Source: Bacillota bacterium (GTDB lineage: Bacteria > Bacillota > Bacilli > Alicyclobacillales > SLC66). From it: a DNA stretch of 37,713 bases. Each line of letters opens with the position of its first letter. The first letter of the stretch is position 1. Positions 24,326 to 28,104 of this stretch are shown here, piece after piece. The notes below the pieces were generated by a model that ran no database searches, was not told the origin of the DNA, and saw nothing but the letters and a program-made list of their open reading frames with translations. The DNA is taken from NCBI GenBank assembly GCA_021846165.1, contig JAJZCL010000007.1, positions 1 through 37,713 on the forward strand, written 5' to 3'. The position numbers were made by a program, and so were the translations under genes.

Positions 24326-24877
24326 ATGAAGGGACGGGTTTTTGCGAGCTGGGGGTTGGCCTCGGTGGCGGTATTGATGTTAACGGGGTTGGCGTGGTGG
24401 TTCAGGCCGTATGGATCCAGTCAGTCGCCTCTGTCGACGGCTGTTCAGGCACAGTATTCCGATCAAGTAATATCGGCAGGAGACGAACAAAAAATTTCCC
24501 TAACACTGACCGCCGCCGTGCCTGAACTTGAGGACGTGGATTACCAATTGATGAGGAGCGGAAAGATGTCGGTGGTGGGTACGGCTGCGCTTGACGGGTA
24601 CGGGGATCGGTACACTCTTGCGGCGGACATGACCGCGCGCTTTTTTGAAACGGTGTACCGTGACTCGCCTGTGCCGGTGGCCTATGCGGCTCTTTACGCC
24701 ACGTACCAAGGAAGATACGTGATGGCTGCGGGGCTCGGGCGCCAAGCGGCGGCGGAGTTGGCGTTGACAACGTTGGGCGCCGACCAAGGCGTACAGTTGG
24801 TCGAGCAACTGGCACGTCTTGGTCAATCTGGTGGCACTCCGTCCACGCAGGCGTTTGCCGAATACCGTCAACCGTGA
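24326..24877 (+). CDS. Membrane-anchored protein of unknown function
   Basis: I do not recognise this 183-residue protein. It has a short basic N-terminus and one hydrophobic segment (about 8-26) that could be a signal or anchor, followed by a soluble, probably extracytoplasmic region with alternating strands and an Ala-rich helical part (about 140-165). There is no Cys at a lipobox position. The start is well supported: ATG 24326 with AGGAGGG (24314-24320). A palindrome lies just upstream. It faces an unknown reverse-strand gene with only 14 bases between stops. No catalytic motif is evident. Confidence 0.72.
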   Translation: MKGRVFASWGLASVAVLMLTGLAWWFRPYGSSQSPLSTAVQAQYSDQVISAGDEQKISLTLTAAVPELEDVDYQLMRSGKMSVVGTAALDGYGDRYTLAADMTARFFETVYRDSPVPVAYAALYATYQGRYVMAAGLGRQAAAELALTTLGADQGVQLVEQLARLGQSGGTPSTQAFAEYRQP

Positions 24878-24891
24878 TCGGTACGATCTGT

Positions 24892-25239
24892 TCAGGAGCC
24901 GTAGCGGCGGTTTTCGGCGCCAACGATGTAAAGCTGGGTAAACCCGATCTGGGACTTGCGTATGTGCCTGATGAGCTGCCTGAAGATGGCTTCATGTCCC
25001 GTCTTGAACAGTGTCTCCACGATGGTATGGGCTGTAAATGGCTCATCAAGGCTTGCGCGTACATTGGGGTCTTCCTCCAAGTGGTGAATCCACTCGTCCC
25101 GGTACCTGTCTCCGCGTCGTTCCGCATAGGCGCTGTGATAAAGGTCTTTGACGGAAAACGGGGCGCCGACAGTCTGCAAATAGAAATCCAATTGATAAAA
25201 AGCTTGGGCCACTGAACGATGGTCCTTGTTCGCGCTCAT
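24892..25239 (-). CDS. Conserved-looking protein of unknown function
   Basis: I do not recognise this 115-residue protein. It appears soluble, mainly helical, rich in His, Arg and aromatic residues (for example QAFYQLDFYLQTVG and KDLYHSAYAERRGDRYRDEW), with no signal segment or Cys. The ATG is preceded on its strand by GAGGTG, 6 bases away, and by a promoter-like pair further upstream; this favours it over the antisense open frame on the + strand. It diverges from the lipoprotein gene and converges on the 24326-24877 gene. Confidence 0.65.
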   Translation of the reverse strand: MSANKDHRSVAQAFYQLDFYLQTVGAPFSVKDLYHSAYAERRGDRYRDEWIHHLEEDPNVRASLDEPFTAHTIVETLFKTGHEAIFRQLIRHIRKSQIGFTQLYIVGAENRRYGS

Positions 25240-25345: not shown

Positions 25346-26338
25346 ATGCATCGGCTTATGCGCATGGCTTTGGGTCTGCTGAGTGCGACGATCGCCATCA
25401 GCCTGTCTGGTTGCGGTTTTGTCAATGTGGCAAACTTAAAGCCCTCCGTCCGTAAAACGTACGCGTTGATCGTGGCTTCGCGCACTTGGCTCAGGAATGC
25501 GCAGGTGGCAAATGAACTCGCAAGTCCGCCCGACGGGGTTAGCATCGTGTCCATGATAACGGACGGGGTCTCGACAACACGGTTAATTTCTGAAATTGAT
25601 CATTCAAATGCCAACGTCATTGTGATGATTCAACCAGTCGCCGCTTTACTGTCTTTGCCTGCCGATCATCCACAGGTGCATTACGATGTCATCGGTGCGG
25701 AACAACCTGTCGCCGGTCAGAATGTGACGACAGTCGCGCCGAATCCTGAACAGGCTGCGTCTGTCGCAGGGTATATTGCGGGCGGTAACGCAGTTTTGGG
25801 GCAACCCATTTACGTTTTGAGCGCGAATGCTAACCCGATTGCGATGGCGGGGGTGGTGAACGCTGTTTATTCGGGGGCACGAGCGGCGTTCTCTAAAAGC
25901 AGTGTGAGTTGGACGAACGCGCTTGCCACTTCCTACTCTGCGTTGAATGGGATCTGGTTGGTGTGGGGCAATGTGCCGACAAGTGATGTGGCACCGATTA
26001 TCGCCACTAGACAACCGCTGATTACGATCAATTCCAACAACGACTTGTCAAGTACGACGCTCTTGGCTGAATTGACGTCAACGGCATGGGTGGCGAACGG
26101 ACTGAAGATGGCGCTTCAGACCATCGCCGAAGGGCAGTCACCGCCAACTGTGAATGTGCCTGTGAAGTTTCGTTTGCTGGCTTCTTCCGGATGGCAACAA
26201 CCTGACGGCATAACCAACTATGAAAACATGATCGCTCAGGGCACTCTTTCTCCGACGGGATTTTTACAAGGCGTTCCCAGCGTGAAAGCGGCGCAGTCGT
26301 TGCGCCTGCCGCTGCCGCCACACACCGCGAAAGGTTAG
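25346..26338 (+). CDS. Lipoprotein with BMP/periplasmic-binding-like fold
   Basis: A 330-residue exported lipoprotein: positively charged N-terminus, hydrophobic stretch and lipobox LSGC with Cys23. The mature part alternates strands and helices in a periplasmic-binding-like pattern (YALIVASRTW, NVIVMIQPVAALLSL, YVLSANANPIAMAGVV, GIWLVWGNVPTSDVAPIIAT, LITINSN), resembling the BMP/Med group of basic membrane lipoproteins. That similarity is by eye, and family membership is moderately sure. Med in B. subtilis affects competence; other BMP proteins bind nucleosides. ATG 25346 follows AAGAGGATGGG. It has no ABC transporter genes beside it. ymfK begins 10 bases downstream. Confidence 0.7.
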   Translation: MHRLMRMALGLLSATIAISLSGCGFVNVANLKPSVRKTYALIVASRTWLRNAQVANELASPPDGVSIVSMITDGVSTTRLISEIDHSNANVIVMIQPVAALLSLPADHPQVHYDVIGAEQPVAGQNVTTVAPNPEQAASVAGYIAGGNAVLGQPIYVLSANANPIAMAGVVNAVYSGARAAFSKSSVSWTNALATSYSALNGIWLVWGNVPTSDVAPIIATRQPLITINSNNDLSSTTLLAELTSTAWVANGLKMALQTIAEGQSPPTVNVPVKFRLLASSGWQQPDGITNYENMIAQGTLSPTGFLQGVPSVKAAQSLRLPLPPHTAKG

Positions 26339-26348
26339 GGGGGATACG

Positions 26349-27107
26349 ATGAACGAATGGTATATGGAATACCGGATTTATAAAGACCGTTTTGGCTTGT
26401 TGGGCGATATCGCTTCACTGCTTGGCATGATGGCGATTAATATTGAAACGTTGCGAGACATTGAAGACCGGCGGCGAGGGTTTTTGATTCGCACGGATGA
26501 TCCGGCGAAGATCGAGAGCCTGCGCACTCTTTTGGAATACGTGGAGAACATCAAATTGACAGCGCTTCGCCAACCCACACTGCTGGATCGGCTGGCGCTT
26601 CGTCACGGCAAGCTGATCACGAAAAGTGTTCAAGAAGAGAAGGTGAATACGTACCAGTTCACGCGCGATGAACTTGGTATGTTGGTGGATTTCCTGGGCG
26701 AACACCTTAAGGCGTCAGGCAATCAGGTAATGGGAATACGCGGCATGCCAAGGGTGGGCAAAACCGAGTCGTTAGTCGCGGCCAGCGTGTACGCTGGTAA
26801 ACGTTGGACGTTTGTTTCGTCCACGCTTTTAAAGCAGACCATTCGCAAGGAGCTTGATGACGAGGAGTTGAGTGTGGAAGATCATGTGTATATCATTGAT
26901 GGCATTGTGTCCACAATGAGGGGGGACGAGGAGCATACGCGACTTCTGCGTCGGATTTTGCGATTGGAGGCTCCCAAGATCATCGAACACCCGGATATTT
27001 TTGTGCAACGTTCCGAATTTTCATGGAAGTTGTTTAATCGCATCATTGAACTCCGCAACACGCCGGATGAAGTGATTACTTACGAAGCGCTCAAGCACTT
27101 GGAATGA
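26349..27107 (+). CDS. ymfK: YmfK family protein (DUF3388): ACT-like domain plus P-loop
   Basis: A 252-residue protein matching the DUF3388/YmfK family that sits upstream of rodZ (ymfM) in Bacilli. The first 75 residues look like an ACT domain (YRIYKDRFGLLGDIASLLG, then INIETLRDIEDRRRGFLIRTDD). Next comes a region ending in a Walker A-type loop GMPRVGKT (132-139), and a hydrophobic strand with Asp, DHVYIIDGI (178-186), that may be Walker B. ATG 26349 follows AGGGGGGAT. No experimental function is known to me; the layout suggests a ligand-sensing nucleotide-binding switch, which is inference. Confidence 0.82.
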   Translation: MNEWYMEYRIYKDRFGLLGDIASLLGMMAINIETLRDIEDRRRGFLIRTDDPAKIESLRTLLEYVENIKLTALRQPTLLDRLALRHGKLITKSVQEEKVNTYQFTRDELGMLVDFLGEHLKASGNQVMGIRGMPRVGKTESLVAASVYAGKRWTFVSSTLLKQTIRKELDDEELSVEDHVYIIDGIVSTMRGDEEHTRLLRRILRLEAPKIIEHPDIFVQRSEFSWKLFNRIIELRNTPDEVITYEALKHLE

Positions 27108-27126
27108 AGAGTGGGAGGTGTTTCAT

Positions 27127-28104
27127 CTGCAGGGCAACCGTTCTGACACGTCAAACGACAGTCACATGGACGCGAATCGTTTGCGGGAAATGGGCGCGTT
27201 TTTAAAGCGAACCCGCGAAGAGAAGGGCATTGGTCTGGAGGCGGCAGTTCATGCGACGAAGATTCGCAGTCGTTATCTGCTGGCGATTGAAGAAGGGGAA
27301 TTTGAGGTGTTGCCGGGCAACGTGTACGCGCGTGGTTTTGTGCGCGGTTACGCCAATTATTTAGGGCTCGACGGGGAAAAAATCGCCCAACAGTACATGG
27401 GCGGCGCGGTAGAGTCGCGATCGGAACAACGGCGTGAGGAAAGCCAATTTGAGCCACCGCGGGAAAATCAGGCGGGCATCATGGAGGAAGCGGCACCGTT
27501 CATTCCGATGTTGCCAAAAATCCCGTCGCAGACGAAACCGCAACGGGTGATGGCAAAGCGCAAAGCGCGGTCTGCCGTGGTCGGTAGGCGAAAGGGCAAT
27601 TCCGGAACGGGGTTGTCAAGTTTGATCATGTGGGTGGCAGGGATTATTCTGTTGCTGACGGCTGCGATTGTTGTGTACAACTACTCGATGAGCTTCCATT
27701 CGCAAAGCAACATGGTCGCGACGGGAACACAACCGCCGTCGACAGTGGCGTCGAGTACGGTTTCTTCGCAAACGAAAATTCCATCTGCATCGCAACCGAT
27801 CAAATTTGTCCAGGCATCTAGCGGAACTTACTCGGCGACCTACAATGTGATAACGACAAAACCGTTGCAGGTCGCGGTGAAGGCAGTCGCGGGCAAGTGC
27901 TGGTTTGAGGTCAAGGCAGACGGCAAGGTGATTGAACCAAGCTTGACCCTGCAAAAAGGACAGATGCAGGTGTGGATGGCAACATCGAACATGCAACTGC
28001 TTGTTGGCGATAGTTTGAACATTTCGATGACGATTAACGGCGCCAATGCCCCTTTAAATCGTCATGCGAACGGGGGATACACCTATATGTTTGTCAGAAA
28101 ATAG
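27127..28104 (+). CDS. rodZ: Cell-shape/cytoskeletal protein RodZ (YmfM)
   Basis: RodZ links MreB filaments to the membrane. Order of parts: N-terminal HTH_25/Xre-like domain (LREMGAFLKRTREEKGIGL through GFVRGYANYLGLD), a basic linker, one membrane segment (LIMWVAGIILLLTAAIVVY), a Ser/Thr-rich linker, and a C-terminal extracytoplasmic DUF4115 beta-domain (VAVKAVAGKCWFEVKADGK to the end). The only strong ribosome binding site, GGGAGGTG (27113-27120), overlaps the in-frame GTG 27118 and is 6 bases before CTG 27127, so I place the start at CTG; ATG 27166 would still keep the HTH but lacks a site. About 325 residues. Confidence 0.88.
   Translation: MQGNRSDTSNDSHMDANRLREMGAFLKRTREEKGIGLEAAVHATKIRSRYLLAIEEGEFEVLPGNVYARGFVRGYANYLGLDGEKIAQQYMGGAVESRSEQRREESQFEPPRENQAGIMEEAAPFIPMLPKIPSQTKPQRVMAKRKARSAVVGRRKGNSGTGLSSLIMWVAGIILLLTAAIVVYNYSMSFHSQSNMVATGTQPPSTVASSTVSSQTKIPSASQPIKFVQASSGTYSATYNVITTKPLQVAVKAVAGKCWFEVKADGKVIEPSLTLQKGQMQVWMATSNMQLLVGDSLNISMTINGANAPLNRHANGGYTYMFVRK

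Follow-up and report, generated by a model that had tools for sequence, protein, structure and literature searches.

ACT domains are mostly regulators of amino-acid metabolism, and some of them have no known ligand. In AAA+ proteins, sensor 1 lies where strand 4 ends; a lid, a Walker B glutamate and a sensor 2 are features of the motor-type members. RodZ links the membrane with MreB, and its cytoplasmic part contacts MreB in other bacteria. The matching of wall elongation to nutrient state in rod-shaped bacteria is an open question. The gene described here lies directly before rodZ in a window of 37,713 nt, by which the whole stretch of DNA analysed is meant. It belongs to DUF3388, a family without an assigned function that includes Bacillus subtilis YmfK.

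A search of open-licence papers found none on DUF3388, and rodZ together with "ACT domain" returned only papers unrelated by title. One paper has a single mention of ymfK, as the neighbour of rodZ in a figure legend (PMC5073135), and another places it within a group co-evolving with polC (PMC3814617). A further paper (PMC3616918) lists a Staphylococcus aureus homologue of YmfK, SAUSA300_1174 (65% according to that paper), as a GntR regulator; this label is at odds with the ACT-P-loop architecture described below. An Escherichia coli gene table also has a gene named ymfK (PMC4448311).

The reading put forward here, to which we give a probability of a little under 0.4, is that YmfK is a ligand- and nucleotide-controlled switch that would act on the cytoplasmic part of RodZ and tune the RodZ-MreB elongation complex.

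Sequence data and family membership

The sample consisted of 398 genomes of the phylum and 14 named control genomes, searched for DUF3388 at a threshold of E ≤ 0.001. Conservation was counted in 51 relatives, reduced from 74 matches so that no two share the same last 200 residues; they represent 42 genomes (one of two identical rows removed) and 10 contigs. Two weak DUF3388 matches, L057 and L058, were excluded before the conservation count and from the DUF3388 counts. Both were rejected as family members, L057 being matched only around the P-loop and L058 being a radical SAM protein whose match was taken as chance.

The window protein matched PF11868 (DUF3388) over residues 71-249 with an E value of 6.4e-72 and 241.4 bits against a cut-off of 25, and is thus a member of the family by the curated Pfam cut-off. 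The Pfam model begins at residue 71, so that the ACT part lies outside it. No membrane helix was found in the protein (hydropathy maximum, 1.43). A search by sequence for a solved structure among its relatives gave only weak matches up to an E value of 10. The features of the locus are listed in Table 1.

Table 1. Coordinates of the DUF3388 gene, its domains and motifs, and nearby genes in the window
Feature	Position (nt)	Strand	Basis or remark
ORF	24326-24877	+	No Pfam match
ORF	24892-25239	-	No Pfam match
Lipoprotein-like gene	25346-26338	+	No Pfam match
DUF3388/YmfK gene	26349-27107	+	ATG start, 252 aa; PF11868 match
ACT domain, residues 3-74	26355-26570	+	Pfam ACT in relatives; predicted topology
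F-x-R-x-x-L box, residues 104-109	26658-26675	+	5' of P-loop; F104 50/51, R106 49/51, L109 48/51
Walker A GMPRVGKT, residues 132-139	26742-26765	+	Conservation in 51 relatives; predicted P-loop fold
Walker B strand ending in D184	26883-26900	+	D184 51/51; predicted strand 179-184
EHPD, residues 213-216	26985-26996	+	Each residue 51/51; predicted strand 210-213, EHPD at end of strand 4
rodZ (HTH, membrane helix, RodZ_C)	27118-28104	+	HTH_25 E 2.8e-22, RodZ_C E 2.5e-8; hydropathy maximum at residue 168

The C-terminal ends of the relatives differ between groups. Outside the window's class, the terminal motif in 27 of 27 rows is [SA]FD, then I, L, V or C, then S or G, and within the class 7 rows end in F-[DNE]-F and 6 rows in Y[ST]D[DE][IL]. 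The 11 rows of the window's clade are without the conserved tail, which is absent at window positions 27060-27104. The conserved tail of the relatives may be a docking peptide. One contig, L075, encodes on its minus strand (1730-2353) a 207-aa DUF3388 protein without the segment between the ACT domain and the P-loop (profile positions 66-118); this form may be real or an assembly fault.

The P-loop domain

A sequence-only reading of this DNA had taken residues 132-139 for a GxxxxGKT loop, with a possible Walker B at 178-186. Both assignments are borne out by the relatives. In the Walker A, G132, P134, G137, K138 and E140 were each present in 51 of 51 sequences and V136 in 50, and residue 139 was T in 48 and S in 3, so that free variation of the GKT residues is not seen. 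Averaged over residues 132-140, the commonest residue had a frequency of 0.96 in these 51 relatives, versus 0.61 over the whole protein. Judging by this conservation, GMPRVGKT is a genuine Walker A and not a chance occurrence. With G132, G137, K138 and D184 invariant, the protein has the conserved Walker A and Walker B aspartate by which a P-loop NTPase is recognized. D184 is followed by G in 42 of the 51 relatives and by A in the other 9, never by E. Further residues present in all 51 are W153, S157, R166, H196, E213, H214, P215, D216 and E234. Placed by the order of elements in the model, EHPD would occupy the sensor-1 position, and it is our guess that its E213 replaces the missing Walker B glutamate.

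The expected P-loop fold was present in the predicted structure, both in the full-length model (pLDDT 74.2, pTM 0.70, built from 11 sequences) and in the best model of the domain alone (residues 77-252; pLDDT 84.8, pTM 0.83, with the other four models at pLDDT 44-60). For the domain alone, the 50 rows listed by Foldseek were all AAA+ entries (TMq up to 0.50). The 50 rows listed by VIA were also AAA+ entries, with ORC1 at Z 8.7 and rmsd 3.2 over 129 residues, where the tool states a background of 7-8. The rows are titled FtsH, p97, NSF, ORC, RFC, RuvB, Vps4, dynein and others, which we take to be AAA+ proteins. In the whole-model comparison, AAA+ entries made up 48 of the 50 rows listed, the other 2 being S6-like, and residues 104-238 aligned to NSF at Z 10.0 and rmsd 3.2 over 134 residues. 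Foldseek with the whole model placed DAHP synthase chains at the top, with TAP export-factor chains also present (TMq at most 0.36). In a comparison with a viral structure library, AAA and Rep proteins came up at low TM.

Profile comparisons by hhalign used sets of five genomes each. The pooled AAA set scored 96.1%, the AAA_16 set (20 sequences, impure by eye and including Clp-, Lon- and ABC-like proteins) 95.5%, the AAA_33 kinases (12 kept of 15 after 3 without the motif were dropped, one FtsH-like protein included) 91.2%, GTPases 78.0% and a RodZ decoy 0.1%. With residues 129-140 masked, these values were 21.6% (in the same register), 5.0%, 1.6%, 0.3% and 0.1%, respectively. AAA subsets of three to six sequences gave 90.1% (FtsH), 89.2% and 85.3%, and 3.1, 0.4 and 0.3% with the Walker A masked. 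Since the subsets lie at or below the kinases when unmasked and around their 1.6% when masked, sequence separates AAA proteins from kinases weakly. By predicted structure, the P-loop domain bears the closest resemblance to an AAA+ core, at modest structure scores and with modest support from profiles. It is called AAA+-like and not a member of AAA+, because it lacks the Walker B glutamate and has no predicted lid: strand 231-236 is followed by one short helix (246-249), leaving no lid with a sensor 2 before the protein ends at residue 252.

The excluded L057 protein has a BTAD-AAA_16-TPR architecture. It matched the DUF3388 profile with 37.1 bits over the F-x-R-x-x-L box and Walker A and scored 46.0% by hhalign with the Walker A masked; two other AAA_16 proteins taken singly scored 6.5% and 0.8%. 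AAA_16 was absent among the Pfam matches of the window protein up to an E value of 10.

The alternative that survives best, itself unlikely, is that YmfK acts as an enzyme, namely an NTP-dependent kinase or transferase under control of the ACT domain, with a small molecule or a protein of the rod complex as its substrate. Its active site would be formed by the P-loop together with the invariant E140, R166, D184, H196, E213, H214, D216 and E234, a dense set of polar residues that does resemble an active site. The kinase profile, level with that of FtsH alone, and the lack of the lid, Walker B glutamate and sensor 2 of motor-type AAA+ proteins also agree with an enzyme. However, each domain-alone structure comparison listed AAA+ entries throughout and no kinases, and the pooled AAA set exceeds the kinases after masking, yet its subsets alone do not do so consistently. 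For the 2-phosphoglycerate-kinase/zeta-type kinase fold in particular, no structure row was found and the pooled AAA set outranked the AAA_33 kinases both masked and unmasked; this fold was lowered in likelihood.

Linkage to rodZ and genomic context

DUF3388 was matched in 44 of the 398 genomes, 42 of them strongly, and B. subtilis was the sole match among the 14 controls. The 42 strong genomes span 18 numbered families, 12 of which lie outside the window's class. In the window, rodZ is the next gene, starting 10 nt past the DUF3388 stop by longest ORF, and its true start may be further in. The next same-strand gene was rodZ in 42 of 42 genomes and in 10 of 10 further contigs, as called by blastp to the window RodZ in 51 of the 52 and, in genome G184, which has a RodZ_C match, by eye on the translation. 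The sequence-only reading had described the gene as a constant neighbour of rodZ in Bacilli; in this sample the linkage is stronger than that and reaches beyond the class. The gaps between the two genes, again by longest ORF, range from a 62-nt overlap to 194 nt, and many are below 30 nt. The named records of Bacillus velezensis and Cytobacillus spongiae have the order DUF3243, YmfK/DUF3388, RodZ/HTH protein, pgsA, cinA-like and recA. Since DUF3388 directly precedes rodZ in every examined genome that has it, it may relay a metabolic signal to cell growth.

RodZ_C was found at E ≤ 0.001 in 317 of the 398 genomes and in 41 of the 42 DUF3388 genomes, and MreB was matched in 42 of 42. Most RodZ genomes are thus without DUF3388, indicating that RodZ functions without it. 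For comparison, 20 RodZ genomes that lack a DUF3388 match were hand-picked from the best-scoring RodZ_C rows with one per family. Among them, ftsK was directly before rodZ in 10 and lay two or three genes upstream of it in 6; the DUF3388 profile matched no ORF at these loci. From the adjacency and these comparison loci, the DUF3388 gene seems to be an optional member of the ftsK-rodZ stretch, adjoining rodZ wherever it occurs. A comparison of 43 RodZ sequences linked to DUF3388 with 20 others showed residue differences, but these track taxonomy. The one DUF3388 genome without RodZ_C, G171, encodes next to DUF3388 (L050, 8357-8794, plus strand) a 145-aa RodZ that consists of HTH, linker and membrane helix and has no extracytoplasmic domain. 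This single case suggests that the cytoplasmic HTH and linker are the likely contact.

It is also conceivable, if improbable, that YmfK is a co-expressed passenger that sits before rodZ for reasons of expression and has an unrelated target, for example in amino-acid metabolism. This would suit the usual role of ACT domains and the run of same-strand genes within which the window gene sits. The nearest named ACT matches are those of phosphoglycerate dehydrogenases, all of them weak (TIGR01327, E 0.031; PDB chains, E 0.65), and these too would fit. However, among the 43 loci of at least 4.5 kb rodZ is the sole neighbour kept throughout: clustering places it at +1 in 42, and inspection by eye does so for the remaining locus. 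Of the other neighbours within four genes on either side, none exceeds pgsA with 26 of 43 (yajQ, 22; ftsK, 18). A passenger would be expected to have separated from rodZ in some of the 18 families.

Around the gene itself, Pfam was run on eight window neighbours, and the names of the remaining window genes are labels from their translations. Five neighbours were named (rodZ, yajQ [DUF520], Clp-like, GDSL lipase-like and dipicolinate synthase subunit A) and three were unmatched. Ten loci of the window's clade retain the lipoprotein-like gene directly 5' of DUF3388, and in L071 a BPD_transp_2 permease gene stands upstream of DUF3388 in its place. The plus- and minus-strand ORFs further upstream (Table 1) have apparent counterparts in 9 and 7 sister loci, respectively, as judged from place and length alone. 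Promoter-like sites around the gene numbered 4 versus 2.3 in shuffled sequence, and terminator-like sites 6 versus 4.0.

No DUF3388 relative was matched in the phage collection, and among viral contigs 33 stretches fitted the search pattern and none encodes one. Two large records filed as plasmids carry the gene in its usual chromosomal-type neighbourhood. A special tie to sporulation was considered and rejected: SpoIVA was found in 336 of the 398 genomes overall, and of the 42 DUF3388 genomes 39 have it (G105, G081 and G306 do not, and the match in G169 is weak).

The ACT domain

The sequence-only reading had assigned the N-terminal 75 residues to an ACT domain, and the relatives and the predicted topology uphold this. 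PF01842 matched the window protein itself over residues 12-45 at E 0.0042 and 17.3 bits, below the cut-off of 27. It matched 35 of 36 relatives scanned singly at E ≤ 1, the best at E 3.3e-7, and ACT_4 matched 21 of the 36. In the best full-length model, strands at residues 3-10, 31-34, 42-48 and 68-74 and helices at 17-27 and 52-63 follow the beta-alpha-beta-beta-alpha-beta order of an ACT domain over residues 3-74. Residues 1-78 of this model align to a chain of a B. subtilis ribosome structure (Z 9.1, rmsd 2.1, 77 residues), identified by its length and by the next such row as ribosomal protein S6, which has a ferredoxin-like fold.

In the 51 relatives, E7, G16, G26 and I32 are invariant, R43 is present in 50 and N31 in 49. 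The loop and turn region with G16, G26, N31, I32 and R43 presumably corresponds to the region that holds serine in the ACT domain of phosphoglycerate dehydrogenase. That YmfK is instead a scaffold or chaperone of RodZ, with the ACT domain as a ligand-free dimerisation module and the nucleotide as a structural element, is quite improbable: ACT domains without a known ligand and the absence of the glutamate after the Walker B aspartate in all 51 relatives would be consistent with it, but the retained loop and turn residues speak against it.

Proposed function

The absence of a membrane helix, the presence of a putative ligand-sensing and a putative nucleotide-binding module and the candidate partner encoded by the adjacent gene lead us to propose that YmfK passes a metabolite signal on to the rod complex. 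As such a switch, YmfK would be a soluble two-domain regulator with an N-terminal ACT sensor and an AAA+-like P-loop domain. The ACT ligand is probably an amino acid or a related metabolite, and the P-loop domain may bind, and perhaps slowly hydrolyse, ATP or GTP. Produced beside RodZ, the protein would act on the cytoplasmic HTH and linker of RodZ, and ligand and nucleotide state could jointly decide whether RodZ is bound or released. The outcome would be a tuning of the RodZ-MreB elongation complex, with a possible effect on MreB, or of the other contacts of RodZ.

The switch on RodZ is supported by the invariant Walker A and D184, the ACT match in 35 of 36 relatives, the predicted P-loop fold, the adjacency to rodZ and the presence of MreB in each of the 42 genomes. 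Against it stand the RodZ genomes without DUF3388, the poor quality of four of the five domain models, the Z of 8.7 that is little above background, the DAHP synthase chains that lead the whole-model Foldseek list, the drop of the AAA score from 96.1% to 21.6% on masking, the score of FtsH alone below that of the kinases and the restriction of the short RodZ to one genome. A more specific form of it, in which a lidless AAA+-derived switch with a catalytic carboxylate relocated to E213 and an ACT sensor gates the cytoplasmic domain of RodZ across 18 or more families of the phylum, is doubtful as a whole. The analysis extends the sequence-only reading by the AAA+-like class, the lack of both a Walker B glutamate and a lid, the invariant EHPD and the tightness and breadth of the rodZ linkage.

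In that more specific form, DUF3388 would serve the rod complex as a dedicated source of metabolic input, by which an amino-acid-type signal reaches MreB-driven elongation. A soluble ACT-P-loop protein whose gene adjoined rodZ wherever it occurred in this sample is a candidate for the nutrient input to elongation.

Comparison with known systems

The ACT domain of D-3-phosphoglycerate dehydrogenase is the nearest named counterpart of the N-terminal part of YmfK, through the weak matches given above. The dehydrogenase has a dehydrogenase domain, whereas YmfK is without one and its other half is a P-loop domain. With the STAND NTPases (AAA_16), DUF3388 shares the F-x-R-x-x-L box before the P-loop, as in the matching L057 protein. 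In contrast to them, YmfK has no C-terminal repeats, and nothing follows the core in the model; it is therefore not placed among the STAND proteins. YmfK resembles the AAA+ core of FtsH, p97, NSF and ORC in its predicted fold, at modest scores, and in the order Walker A, strand 2, Walker B and strand 4. It differs from this core in having no glutamate after the Walker B aspartate, no predicted lid, and EHPD in place of the usual sensor 1.
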